From the NCBI GenBank assembly GCA_946699065.1, contig CAMPDV010000837.1, positions 108,022 through 172,021 on the forward strand: a stretch of 64,000 nt of DNA, in the 5' to 3' direction. Position 1 is the first letter of the stretch, and every line of letters begins with the position of its first letter. The stretch is from Loxodes magnus. Lineage: Eukaryota > Ciliophora > Karyorelictea > Loxodida > Loxodidae. Below are positions 798-64,000 of the stretch, piece after piece. A program made the translations under genes and the position numbers. The notes beneath the pieces are model-generated. The model did not search any database. It was not told the origin of the DNA and saw only the letters and a program-made list of their open reading frames with translations.

Positions 798-995
798 CTA
801 ATCATGACTTCCCGATACGAAGAACTCTGAATCACTGGATATAGCCACAGCATATACATAACTAGTGTGACCACTCATGGTCTTACAGCTACTGTCTTGA
901 CGTCCCATAGTCTCATGTCTTATCTCAACTTCCCGATACGAAGAACTCTGAATCACTGGATATAGCCACAGCATATACATAACTAGTGTGACCAC
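798..995 (-). other. Frame-hopping open piece at the edge of a shortened unit
   Basis: Begins at ATG in the second reading frame of the unit (MVTLVMYMLWLYPV), crosses the CTCATGTC one-base loss at 911 and the codon-9 loss at 888, then continues in the blade frame to TAG40. The hydrophobic opening is simply the out-of-phase translation of the GHTSYVYAVA region and is not taken as a signal peptide or membrane segment. Confidence 0.3.
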
Positions 996-3960
996 TCATG
1001 GTCTTACTGGTACCTGTCTTGACGTCCCATAGTCTCACCGTCTTATCATGACTTCCCGATACAATGAACTCTGAATCACTGGATATAGCCACAGCATATA
1101 CATAACTAGTGTGACCACTCATGGTCTTACAGCTACCTGTCTTGACGTCCCATAGTCTCACCGTCTAATCATAACTTCCCGATACAATGAACTCTGAATC
1201 ACTGGATATAGCCACAGCATATAAATAACTAGTGTGACCACTCATGGTCTTACAGCTACCTGTCTTGACGTCCCATAGTCTCACCGTCTAATCATGACTT
1301 CCCGATACGATGAACTCTGAATCACTGGATATAGCCACAGATAATACATAATTAGTGTGACCACTCATGGTCTTACAGCTACCTGTCTTGACGTCCCATA
1401 GTCTCACCGTCTAATCATGACTTCCCGATACGATGAACTCTGAATCACTGGATATAGCCACAGCATATAAATAACTAGTGTGACCACTCATGGTCTTACA
1501 GCTACCTGTCTTGACGTCCCATAGTCTCACCGTCTTATCATGACTTCCCGATACGAAGAACTCTGAATCACTGGATATAGCCACAGATCATACATAACTA
1601 GTGTGACCACTCATGGTCTTACAGCTACCTGTCTTGACGTCCCATAGTCTCACCGTCTAATCATGACTTCCCGATACAATGAACTCTGAATCACTGGATA
1701 TAGCCACAGCATATAAATAACTAGTGTGACCACTCATGGTCTTACAGCTACCTGTCTTGACGTCCCATAGTCTCACCGTCTAATCATGACTTCCCGATAC
1801 AATGAACTCTGAATCACTGGATATAGCCACAGATAATACATAACTAGTGTGACCACTCATGGTCTTACAGCTACCTGTCTTGACGTCCCATAGTCTCACC
1901 GTCTTATCTCAACTTCCCGATACGAAGAACTCTGAATCACTGGATATAGCCACAGCATATACATAACTAGTGTGACCACTCATGGTCTTACAGCTACCTG
2001 TCTTGACGTCCCATAGTCTCACCGTCTAATCATAACTTCCCGATACAATGAACTCTGAATCACTGGATATAGCCACAGATCATACATAACTAGTGTGACC
2101 ACTCATGGTCTTACAGCTACCTGTCTTGACGTCCCATAATCTCACCGTCTTATCATGACTTCCCGATACAATGAACTCTGAATCACTGGATATAGCCACA
2201 GATCATACAAAACTAGTGTGACCACTCATGGTCTTAAAGGTACCTGTCTTTACGTCCCATAGTCTCACCGTCTAATCATGACTTCCCGATACAATGAACT
2301 CTGAATCACTGGATATAGCCACAGCATATACATAACTAGTGTGACCACTCATGGTCTTACAGGTACCTGTCTTGACGTCCCATAGTCTCACCGTCTTATC
2401 ATCACTTCCCGATACGATGAACTCTGAATCACTGGATATAGCCACAGCATATACATAACTAGTGTGACCACTCATGGTCTTACAGCTACCTGTCTTTACG
2501 TTCCATAGTCTCACCGTCTAATCATGACTTCCCGATACAATGAACTCTGAATCACTGGATATAGCCACAGCATATAAATAACTAGTGTGACCACTCATGG
2601 TCTTACAGCTACCTGTCTTGACGTCCCATAGTCTCACCGTCTAATCATAACTTCCCGATACAATGAACTCTGAATCACTGGATATAGCCACAGCATATAA
2701 ATAACTAGTGTGACCACTCATGGTCTTACAGCTACCTGTCTTGACGTCCCATAGTCTCACCGTCTAATCATAACTTCCCGATACGATGAACTCTGAATCA
2801 CTGGATATAGCCACAGATAATACATAATTAGTGTGACCACTCATGGTCTTACAGCTACCTGTCTTGACGTCCCATAGTCTCACCGTCTAATCATGACTTC
2901 CCGATACGATGAACTCTGAATCACTGGATATAGCCACAGCATATAAATAACTAGTGTGACCACTCATGGTCTTACAGCTACCTGTCTTGACGTCCCATAG
3001 TCTCACCGTCTAATCATGACTTCCCGATACAATGAACTCTGAATCACTGGATATAGCCACAGCATATACATAACTAGTGTGACCACTCATGGTCTTACAG
3101 CTACCTGTCTTGACGTCCCATAGTCTCACCGTCTAATCATGACTTCCCGATACAATGAACTCTGAATCACTGGATATAGCCACAGATCATACATAATCTT
3201 TGTTACCACTCATGGTCTTACAGCTACCTGTCTTGACGTTCCATAGTCTCACCGTCTCATCTCTACTTCCCGATACAATGAACTCTGAATCACTGGATAT
3301 AGCCACAGCATATACATAACTAGTGTGACCACTCATGGTCTTACAGCTACCTGTCTTGACGTCCCATAGTCTCACCGTCTAATCATGACTTCCCGATACA
3401 ATGAACTCTGAATCACTGGATATAGCCACAGATAATACATAATTAGTGTGACCACTCATGGTCTTACAGCTACCTGTCTTGACGTCCCATAGTCTCACCG
3501 TCTAATCATAACTTCCCGATACAATGAACTCTGAATTACTGGATATAGCCACAGATCATACATAATCTTTGTTACCACTCATGGTCTTACAGCTACCTGT
3601 CTTGACGTCCCATAGTCTCACCGTCTTATCATGACTTCCCGATACGAAGAACTCTGAATCACTGGATATAGCCACAGCATATACATAACTAGTGTGACCA
3701 CTCATGGTCTTACAGCTACCTGTCTTGACGTCCCATAGTCTCACCGTCTAATCATGACTTCCCGATACAATGAACTCTGAATCACTGGATATAGCCACAG
3801 ATAATACATAATTAGTGTGACCACTCATGGTCTTAAAGGTACCTGTCTTTACGTCCCATAGTCTCACCGTCTAATCATGACTTCCCGATACAATGAACTC
3901 TGAATCACTGGATATAGCCACAGCATATAAATAACTAGTGTGACCACTCATGGTCTTACA
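920..3960 (-). pseudogene. Frameshift-free WD40 run, about 25 units, interrupted only by TGA and TAG
   Basis: Spacing between one-base-loss sites at about 888 and 3961 is 3073 bp. This equals 25 units of 123 bp minus the losses at 888 and 911, so every unit between them is 123 bp and one minus-strand frame runs for roughly 1,010 codons. Interruptions are TAG at codon 40 in most units, TGA at codon 22 in many and TGA at codon 38 in few. No TAA was seen in this frame. Codon 38 here is mostly His or Tyr, with one Arg and one Asp. WN variants (codon 5) and one GNKDY unit at about 3197 are included. Under the standard code this is a nonfunctional stretch. If TGA and TAG are sense codons it would be a single open frame of 24-25 WD40 blades, which is why it is listed apart from the array. 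Confidence 0.55.
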
Positions 3961-61656: not shown

Positions 61657-62007
61657 TCAACTTCCCGATACGAAGAACTCTGAATCACTGGATATAGCCA
61701 CAGCATATACATAACTAGTGTGACCACTCATGGTCTTACAGCTACCTGTCTTGACGTCCCATAGTCTCACCGTCTTATCATGACTTCCCGATACGAAGAA
61801 CTCTGAATCACTGGATATAGCCACAGCATATACATAACTAGTGTGACCACTCATGGTCTTACAGCTACCTGTCTTGACGTCCCATAGTCTCACCGTCTTA
61901 TCATGACTTCCCGATACGAAGAACTCTGAATCACTGGATATAGCCACAGCATATACATAACTAGTGTGACCACTCATGGTCTTACAGCTACTGTCTTGAC
62001 GTCCCAT
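61657..62007 (-). pseudogene. 116-codon WD40 piece starting MGRQDSSCK
   Basis: ATG at the high end enters through a one-base-loss unit. Three near-identical G-S-C, GHTSY, YVYAVA, F33, H-D-K-T blades follow, ending at TGA38. All three blades use F33 (GAAGAAC on the plus strand), a local run of one variant that suggests recent single-unit expansion. Confidence 0.4.
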
Positions 62008-64000
62008 AGTCTCACCGTCTTATCTCAACTTCCCGATACGATGAACTCTGAATCACTGGATATAGCCACAGATCATACATAACTAGTGTGACCACTCATG
62101 GTCTTACAGCTACCTGTCTTGACGTCCCATAGTCTCACCGTCTTATCTCAACTTCCCGATACAATGAACTCTGAATCACTGGATATAGCCACAGCATATA
62201 CATAACTAGTGTGACCACTCATGGTCTTACAGCTACTGTCTTGACGTCCCATAGTCTCACCGTCTTATCTCAACTTCCCGATACGATGAACTCTGAATCA
62301 CTGGATATAGCCACAGATCATACATAACTAGTGTGACCACTCATGGTCTTACAGCTACCTGTCTTGACGTCCCATAGTCTCACCGTCTTATCATGACTTC
62401 CCGATACGAAGAACTCTGAATCACTGGATATAGCCACAGCATATACATAACTAGTGTGACCACTCATGGTCTTACAGCTACTGTCTTGACGTCCCATAGT
62501 CTCACCGTCTTATCTCAACTTCCCGATACGATGAACTCTGAATCACTGGATATAGCCACAGATCATACATAACTAGTGTGACCACTCATGGTCTTACAGC
62601 TACCTGTCTTGACGTCCCATAGTCTCACCGTCTCATCTCTACTTCCCGATACGATGAACTCTGAATCACTGGATATAGCCACAGCATATACATAACTAGT
62701 GTGACCACTCATGGTCTTACAGCTACTGTCTTGACGTCCCATAGTCTCACCGTCTTATCTCAACTTCCCGATACGATGAACTCTGAATCACTGGATATAG
62801 CCACAGCATATACATAACTAGTGTGACCACTCATGGTCTTACAGCTACTGTCTTGACGTCCCATAGTCTCACCGTCTTATCTCAACTTCCCGATACAATG
62901 AACTCTGAATCACTGGATATAGCCACAGCATATACATAACTAGTGTGACCACTCATGGTCTTACAGCTACTGTCTTGACGTCCCATAGTCTCACCGTCTT
63001 ATCTCAACTTCCCGATACGATGAACTCTGAATCACTGGATATAGCCACAGATCATACATAACTAGTGTGACCACTCATGGTCTTACAGCTACCTGTCTTG
63101 ACGTCCCATAGTCTCACCGTCTTATCATGACTTCCCGATACGAAGAACTCTGAATCACTGGATATAGCCACAGCATATACATAACTAGTGTGACCACTCA
63201 TGGTCTTACAGCTACTGTCTTGACGTCCCATAGTCTCACCGTCTTATCTCAACTTCCCGATACGATGAACTCTGAATCACTGGATATAGCCACAGATCAT
63301 ACATAACTAGTGTGACCACTCATGGTCTTACAGCTACCTGTCTTGACGTCCCATAGTCTCACCGTCTCATCTCTACTTCCCGATACGATGAACTCTGAAT
63401 CACTGGATATAGCCACAGCATATACATAACTAGTGTGACCACTCATGGTCTTACAGCTACTGTCTTGACGTCCCATAGTCTCACCGTCTTATCTCAACTT
63501 CCCGATACGATGAACTCTGAATCACTGGATATAGCCACAGATCATACATAACTAGTGTGACCACTCATTTTCTTACAGCTACCTGTCTTGACGTCCCATA
63601 GTCTCACCGTCTAATCATGACTTCCCGATACGAAGAACTCTGAATCACTGGATATAGCCACAGCATATACATAACTAGTGTGACCACTCATGGTCTTACA
63701 GCTACCTGTCTTGACGTCCCATAGTCTCACCGTCTTATCTCAACTTCCCGATACAATGAACTCTGAATCACTGGATATAGCCACAGCATATACATAACTA
63801 GTGTGACCACTCATGGTCTTACAGCTACCTGTCTTGACGTCCCATAGTCTCACCGTCTTATCATGACTTCCCGATACGAAGAACTCTGAATTACTGGATA
63901 TAGCCACAGCATATACATAACTAGTGTGACCACTCATGGTCTTACAGCTACCTGTCTTGACGTCCCATAGTCTCACCGTCTTATCTCAACTTCCCGATAC

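Follow-up and report, generated by a model that had tools for sequence, protein, structure and literature searches.

The DNA analyzed here was a 64,000-bp stretch (the window) of the genome of the ciliate Loxodes magnus, namely bases 108,022–172,021 of contig CAMPDV010000837.1 (C837; 172,021 bp in total, with the contig stopping at the window end) in an assembly of 705,730,643 bases and 7,843 contigs. The window very probably belonged to a satellite-like array of very large size coding for WD40 repeats, within which the in-frame standard stop codons would be ordinary sense codons at variable ligand-facing positions. The whole window (1..64000, minus strand) was composed of tandem units of 123 bp or multiples thereof with 91–94% matches in Tandem Repeats Finder (TRF), and each unit, read on the minus strand, encoded one WD40 blade of 41 residues; this assignment was based on TRF, contig position, codon table, and contig samples, the last being six extra 10-kb stretches from the rest of C837, which displayed the identical array type on the unchanged strand. 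The original prediction, made from the letters of the window alone, had rightly recognized an array; the limits it gave (920–64000) were wrong, and no array edge was present in the window.

Eight blades at 60904..61887 (minus strand) were translated with table 27 (the karyorelict nuclear code; see below) into a 328-aa sequence, P0002, in which Pfam WD40 was found in eight stretches (E 1.1e-94). The single-sequence AlphaFold2 model of P0002 under the table 27 reading was a confident beta-propeller (predicted local distance difference test 94.7; predicted template modeling score 0.91) with strands a, b, and c at residues 19–24, 30–35, and 40–44, respectively. The best Foldseek match was 5mzh_A (TMq 0.94), and the best PDB sequence match was 2ymu_A (E 6e-202). 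Internal conservation among the WD40 repeats was high (94% matches between units in TRF).

Codons were numbered with L of the LWD motif as column 1, codons 22 and 38 of the original prediction thereby becoming columns 20 and 36, and codon counts were restricted to units with a length of exactly 123 or 126 bp. In the window, 383 units had the exact 123-bp length, against 523 TATGG anchors (a stricter anchor gave 342). TGA recurred at both columns, as had been noted: (i) column 20 held TAT 238, TGA 132, and TTA 13 and (ii) column 36 held TGA 170, CAT 126, TAT 31, AGA 29, GGA 21, GAT 5, and GCA 1, with TGG in 0/383 units at each. Column 38, two codons further on and overlooked by the original prediction, held AAG 266, TAG 83, TAT 21, and GAG 13, and two recoded codons were accordingly in play within the unit, TGA plus TAG at column 38. 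Examples from the translation, all on the minus strand, were TGA (Trp) of column 36 at 61657..61659, TGA (Trp) of column 20 at 61336..61338, and TAG (Gln) of column 38 at 61282..61284. The argument that stops are not scattered as chance decay predicts was borne out: 12 of the 41 columns of a typical unit were one step away from a standard stop, and columns 20, 36, and 38 held 385/388 stop-type codons in the window units (column 29 held the other three) and 527/527 in the sampled rest of C837. The three-base difference between TAT GCT and TGA TCT, put forward against decay of a Tyr codon, was true, but TTA TCT was one step from TGA TCT. Array units were not independent, as amplification copies variants; better support for nonchance placement therefore came from other arrays with different frameworks, in which TGA was likewise located in columns 18 and 20 (and 12).

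The genetic code was examined on protein kinases. Table 27 assigns UAA/UAG to Gln and UGA to Trp/stop in the published descriptions of the karyorelicts Loxodes (PMC11441545) and Parduczia (PMC4967479), and the 706-Mbp macronuclear (MAC) assembly of L. magnus is described with this table, UGA being Trp or stop (PMC11441545). The kinase search of the genome gave 136 matches, 135 of which had in-frame TAA, TAG, or TGA by table reading; the 20 best of these 136 matches were aligned with the stop-type codons masked as X, no meaning being assumed. The invariant kinase Trp column contained 16 TGG and 4 TGA, and the 13 TGA in the alignment were distributed in Trp-majority columns (8), columns of no majority (5), and other majority columns (0); TAA (72) and TAG (46) were enriched 7.4 and 9.1 times, respectively, at Gln after background weighting. 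These alignments showed UGA = Trp directly, and they supported UAR = Gln, consistent with the published code; both assignments were alike in the descriptions of table 27 cited above, and no difference from them was found. TGA did therefore occur in conserved Trp columns of other genes, as the original prediction had proposed to check, and the standard stop usage that it had named as speaking against its idea was not what the host's other genes displayed.

A pseudogene array under the standard code, with TGA and TAG as true stops arisen by decay and spread by amplification, would agree with the frameshifts in the window (see below) and with the finding that a single step separates each stop-type codon from a sense codon of the same column; it was nevertheless ruled out by the kinase alignment (TGA in 4/20 sequences at an invariant Trp column, stop-type codons in 135/136 matches) unless the kinases are all pseudogenes, and it is thus extremely improbable. 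Adenosine-to-inosine editing of UGA to UGG in the transcript, with UGA a stop in the DNA, would yield the identical protein; it can be given almost no probability either, being unneeded given TGA at Trp columns genome-wide and leaving TAA/TAG unexplained. Condylostoma, another ciliate with UGA as Trp, also speaks against editing, since direct translation was demonstrated there by ribosome profiling and mass spectrometry (PMC4967479). Reassignment was thereby the supported one among the readings offered originally, editing and ancestral TGG-to-TGA decay being unneeded; CGA-to-TGA decay as the sole source was also rejected, as it was unneeded and would leave TAG unexplained. Two of the observations offered earlier had spoken against reassignment: the WD-motif Trp was always TGG (523 TATGG and 0 TATGA-type pattern matches in the window), and TGG was missing from columns 20 and 36 (the one search pattern for TGG at column 20 had a single genome-wide match). 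Both were true, yet they carried no weight, because the codon of a column within an array would follow descent and because, where C837 and a second contig, C272, had TGA, the other codons of the column mostly ended in A or T, from which Trp would be reached as TGA. The question of in-frame TGA was thus settled by an already known code.

The columns holding the recoded codons were compared with the hypervariable codons of Podospora NWD-family repeats. Codons 7, 9, 25, and 27 of the latter are described as being under positive diversifying selection; they lie on either side of conserved codons 8 and 26 and belong to the binding face, within its d-a loop and b-c turn (PMC1805685). Columns 18, 20, 36, and 38 of the Loxodes units bracketed conserved Val 19 and Asp 37 at a spacing of 2, 16, and 2, equal to that in Podospora, the two numberings being matched by spacing and text descriptions; in the AlphaFold model of eight blades, columns 18 and 20 were positioned where strand a begins, and columns 36 and 38 in the b-c turn. 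Three of these four ligand-face columns (x-V-x and x-D-x) were variable in the window, and these three accommodated nearly all of the recoded codons (385/388).

Residue diversity was determined for nine unit sets: C837 supplied two, and the other seven, which represented two further frameworks, came from arrays of C1503, C6957, C119, C272, C9, C1832, and C620; the C1503 loci L002 and L006–L008, which were overlapping or near-duplicate, were excluded from the tests of diversity, of nonsynonymous to synonymous polymorphism (pN/pS), and of nonsynonymous to synonymous variants (N:S). Diversity at columns 18/20/36/38 was above that of nearly all four-column sets in 9/9 unit sets (p 1.8e-5 to 0.008), and the two sister array families varied at the same columns as the window family. 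Columns 12, 18, and 20 held 73–100% of the stop-type codons in the seven other arrays, with W as TGA exemplified by GHENWVVAIALSND in C272 and GHAHWVWSIAISPD in C9. Column 18 of C272 had TGA 59, AGA 20, GGA 16, GTA 13, and AGT 1, codons ending in A from which Trp would be reached as TGA. Codon steps at bases 1, 2, and 3 in the three families numbered 23, 18, and 11 for the four columns versus 25, 24, and 31 for the framework (the codon lists of one sister family, named FQTG, included the overlapping loci L024/L051 and L005/L053). Pairwise pN/pS in the hypervariable columns was 1.2 to 8, a measure swayed by a few common variants. The concentration of variation at the ligand-face columns was directly observed, and we infer from it that diversifying selection may have acted there.

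These data suggest the following course: (i) with UGA = Trp and UAA/UAG = Gln, the 'stops' of the array would be read as sense; (ii) the few positions that vary and face the ligand in each blade would offer a set of residues including Trp and Gln, and the stop-type codons would cluster because these two belong to that set; (iii) judging from the codon lists, Trp would arise as TGA instead of TGG in C837 and C272, where the other codons of the TGA columns mostly end in A or T; and (iv) unequal exchange would enlarge and homogenize the arrays, spreading each variant.

Coding status was assessed through the reading frame and through framework variation. Across 506 anchors of the window, the phase was broken 138 times, in most cases by a single recurrent 1-bp deletion, and the earlier remark on frameshifts in many units was thus correct. 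The rest of C837 had phase breaks in 26/79 (L009), 6/81 (L010), 12/75 (L011), 27/82 (L012), 1/80 (L013), and 1/82 (L014). Among the 6- to 10-kb loci on other contigs, six (L015, L016, L017, L020, L021, and L023) had no phase break, and L018, L019, L022, and L024 had 3, 1, 3, and 9, respectively; among the exact matches listed, the C6 array had 7 in about 105 units and the C4 array 1 in about 134. The main deletion variant had 971 genome-wide copies versus 468,767 matches to the family framework (see below), and it therefore marks local blocks. Most of its copies, among the matches listed, were on C49, where an array on the plus strand (C49:1040828–1085368) was rich in the 1-bp deletion variant of the window and was possibly the same block or its allele. 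An ultra-short intron accounting for the 122-bp units was considered and rejected, no GT...AG of fitting length being spotted by eye; L. magnus introns are reported to peak at 17 bp (PMC11441545).

Distinct single-step framework variants were compared with the neutral expectation under the observed transition share, overlapping loci being removed. The FQTG framework (694 units) gave 14 N : 12 S for variants seen at least twice (P 0.016), 8 : 12 at least three times (P 0.0018), and 4 : 10 at least five times (P 0.0004), and the C837 framework was neutral at 19 : 7 (P 0.48), 19 : 4 (P 0.87), and 14 : 4 (P 0.73). By this test, protein-level constraint was apparent in the FQTG family, at most suggested in C272, and absent in C837. 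The window block was probably a decayed or untranslated part of a family with a present or past coding role elsewhere, because the frame was lost in about a quarter of units and protein-level constraint was lacking.

The same code would also hold if the repeats were noncoding everywhere now, with the WD40 reading, TGA/TAG, and variable positions inherited from one or a few coding ancestors and then amplified. The neutral framework of C837 (19 N : 7 S, P 0.48), the many interruptions of phase in the window (138 among 506 anchors), the lack of an N-terminal domain at all three of the array edges that were reached (see below), and the about 469,000 copies all agree with such a pure satellite, to which we give a substantial probability, somewhat short of one half. 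The frame kept intact in six sister loci of 6–10 kb (0 breaks), the synonymous excess in the FQTG framework, and the ligand-face column variation across three different frameworks speak against it.

Several points weigh against reading the window as part of a WD40-coding array with recoded codons at ligand-facing positions: (i) the four columns were singled out once variation had been seen; (ii) column 18 was nearly invariant in C837 (TAT 776/792); (iii) column 12, outside the Podospora set, held much TGA in the FQTG arrays (38/81 in C1503, 4/11 in C6957, 7/12 in C119, 12/25 in C1832, and 16/57 in C620); (iv) distinct single-step N:S in the hypervariable columns was not above neutral; (v) the C272 framework, at 5 : 4 (P 0.13) and 4 : 4 (P 0.07), was not significant; (vi) no array within a complete gene was found among the arrays examined; (vii) the 72 kinase TAA were distributed over columns of no majority (37), Gln (8), Glu (7), Lys (7), and others (13), and the 46 TAG over no majority (23), Glu (6), Gln (5), Lys (5), and others (7), so that TAA/TAG at majority columns were not clearly Gln (8/35 and 5/23) and only the background-weighted enrichment favored Gln; and (viii) tRNA-Trp(UCA) was not found with two patterns, one of them modeled on the CCA tRNA and with 100 of its 309 matches listed. 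Genes for tRNA-Trp(CCA) were present in the genome, and the anticodon stem was not evident by eye at two places with TCA at the anticodon among the tRNA-pattern matches listed; tRNA-Trp(UCA) is likewise reported as not found in Condylostoma (PMC4967479).

The window family was represented by 468,767 genome matches to part of its framework, no more than one mismatch being allowed, and, if one match equals one unit, 468,767 × 123 bp amounted to 57.7 Mb or 8.2% of the assembly; the other framework types had 13,185 exact matches to one pattern. The published description of the L. magnus MAC assembly gives 231 Mbp of tandem repeats, called low-complexity (PMC11441545), and about a quarter of these (57.7 of 231 Mbp, about 25%) would thus gain an identity as WD40-coding units. 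Array lengths are uncertain, as the same description warns of misassembly in such repeats (PMC11441545). Among the exact matches listed, the nine array places on C2–C10 were all at most 232 kb away from a contig end (Fisher p 3.6e-6); the array coding strand was directed toward the near contig end in 8/9 of them (p 0.039), the p value of end proximity being partly an assembly effect since contigs tend to break in repeats. A subterminal arrangement of the 123-bp family arrays is possible; L. magnus telomeres and telomerase are described as undetected so far (PMC11441545). Two of these contigs, C5:1–4000 (L066) and C10:1–4000 (L067), started in an 80-bp pyrimidine-rich satellite with about 50 copies each in TRF, and their WD40 arrays began 6–8 kb inward of it. 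The arrays as contig-terminal telomeres were rejected, C5 and C10 beginning with the 80-bp satellite and the arrays being located near the ends, not at them.

The flanks of the arrays were searched for accompanying domains. Three array edges were reached, on C9, C620, and C119, and in the 4.0, 3.2, and 5.5 kb upstream of them, respectively, read in three frames with table 27, Pfam detected only WD40-type domains, located at the array; the stretches of C272, C1832, and C1503 taken for the upstream search were still array. None of 31 NACHT matches in the genome lay within 200 kb of a known array place: C9 was the one contig sampled for array stretches that also carried a match, at a distance of >230 kb, and on C2, C3, and C10 the matches were >400 kb from the array places listed. 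A NACHT-WD40 gene architecture was thereby rejected, with no NACHT at the three array edges reached or near the known array places, and the arrays were not filed as HNWD.

The arrays were compared with known WD40 systems. They shared with Podospora HET-D/HET-E/HNWD (PMC1805685, PMC2873952, PMC12222747), as described there, near-identical blades and variation at codon pairs around Val and Asp, but they differed in (i) a length of tens to hundreds of kb versus at most 14 repeats reported in Podospora (PMC1805685), (ii) no NACHT or HET domain being found and the host being a ciliate, and (iii) much TGA at column 12 and almost no variation at one of the four columns within the window. As judged from sequence, the arrays therefore resemble HNWD sensors in blade variation, yet they are not classed as an HNWD gene. 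The recently amplified beta-propellers (WRAP and 2ymu_A; PMC9218822) likewise had a single blade amplified into near-identical copies, those described being propellers of single proteins, in contrast to the genome-wide repeat family of ~58 Mb here. WD40-coding tandem repeats were also among the TRF repeats of the micronuclear assembly of a ciliate, in which all tandem repeats totaled 1.39 Mb and for which the description, as far as covered, does not mention recoded codons at ligand-face columns. The long head-to-tail arrays in many places (468,767 framework matches) were satellite-like in arrangement.

UGA = Trp in karyorelicts was already known, and new to the literature searched were the placement of the recoded codons and the scale of the WD40-coding satellite; this literature (without preprints, most subscription papers, and supplements) contained no report that places recoded codons in the variable WD40 columns of the ligand face, and none of a WD40-coding satellite at such scale. 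If the recoded stops are ordinary members of a varying residue set, the code change widens the residues reachable at a hypervariable site, and the variation observed suggests a WD40 diversity in the style of NOD-like receptors (NLRs) outside fungi. Gene finders using the standard code, or tandem-repeat masking applied first, would overlook such arrays. A chromosome-scale Loxodes library of WD40 blades, in which frame-intact arrays would encode giant or often recombining propeller receptors diversified at their binding residues like fungal NLRs, decayed arrays such as the window block would act as donors, recoding would bring Trp and Gln within single steps that yield stops in other codes, and the arrays may mark subterminal chromosome regions, is a speculative extension that we consider unlikely.

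Further features of the window, all on the minus strand except where position alone is given, included the longest in-frame stretch found, at 1033..3861 (943 codons, 23 units), which was open only with TGA and TAG as sense, and two more in-frame stretches at 5454..7790 (779 codons) and 59428..61887 (820 codons). At window positions 21466–21755, TRF gave two copies of a 145-bp period, with 22 bp duplicated at 21590–21632, as in a local rearrangement within the array.

Other loci were met in the course of the code analysis. The eRF1 of other eukaryotes carries a YxCxxxF motif. The eRF1 match at C196:19713–20081 (L028) kept NIKS, with a recoded Gln codon in front of it, and read FFLCENTF; a second similar match was present 35 kb off, also on C196. 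Tandem arrays resembling tRNA-Trp(CCA) were found at C67:482309–491186 and C148:155450–163364 with a spacing of about 187 and 241 bp, respectively, and tandem tRNA-bearing units with identical high-scoring matches were found at C103:669738–672972 (527 bp), C78:681122–688206 (about 1,753 bp), and C158:171420–182004 (1,752 bp).

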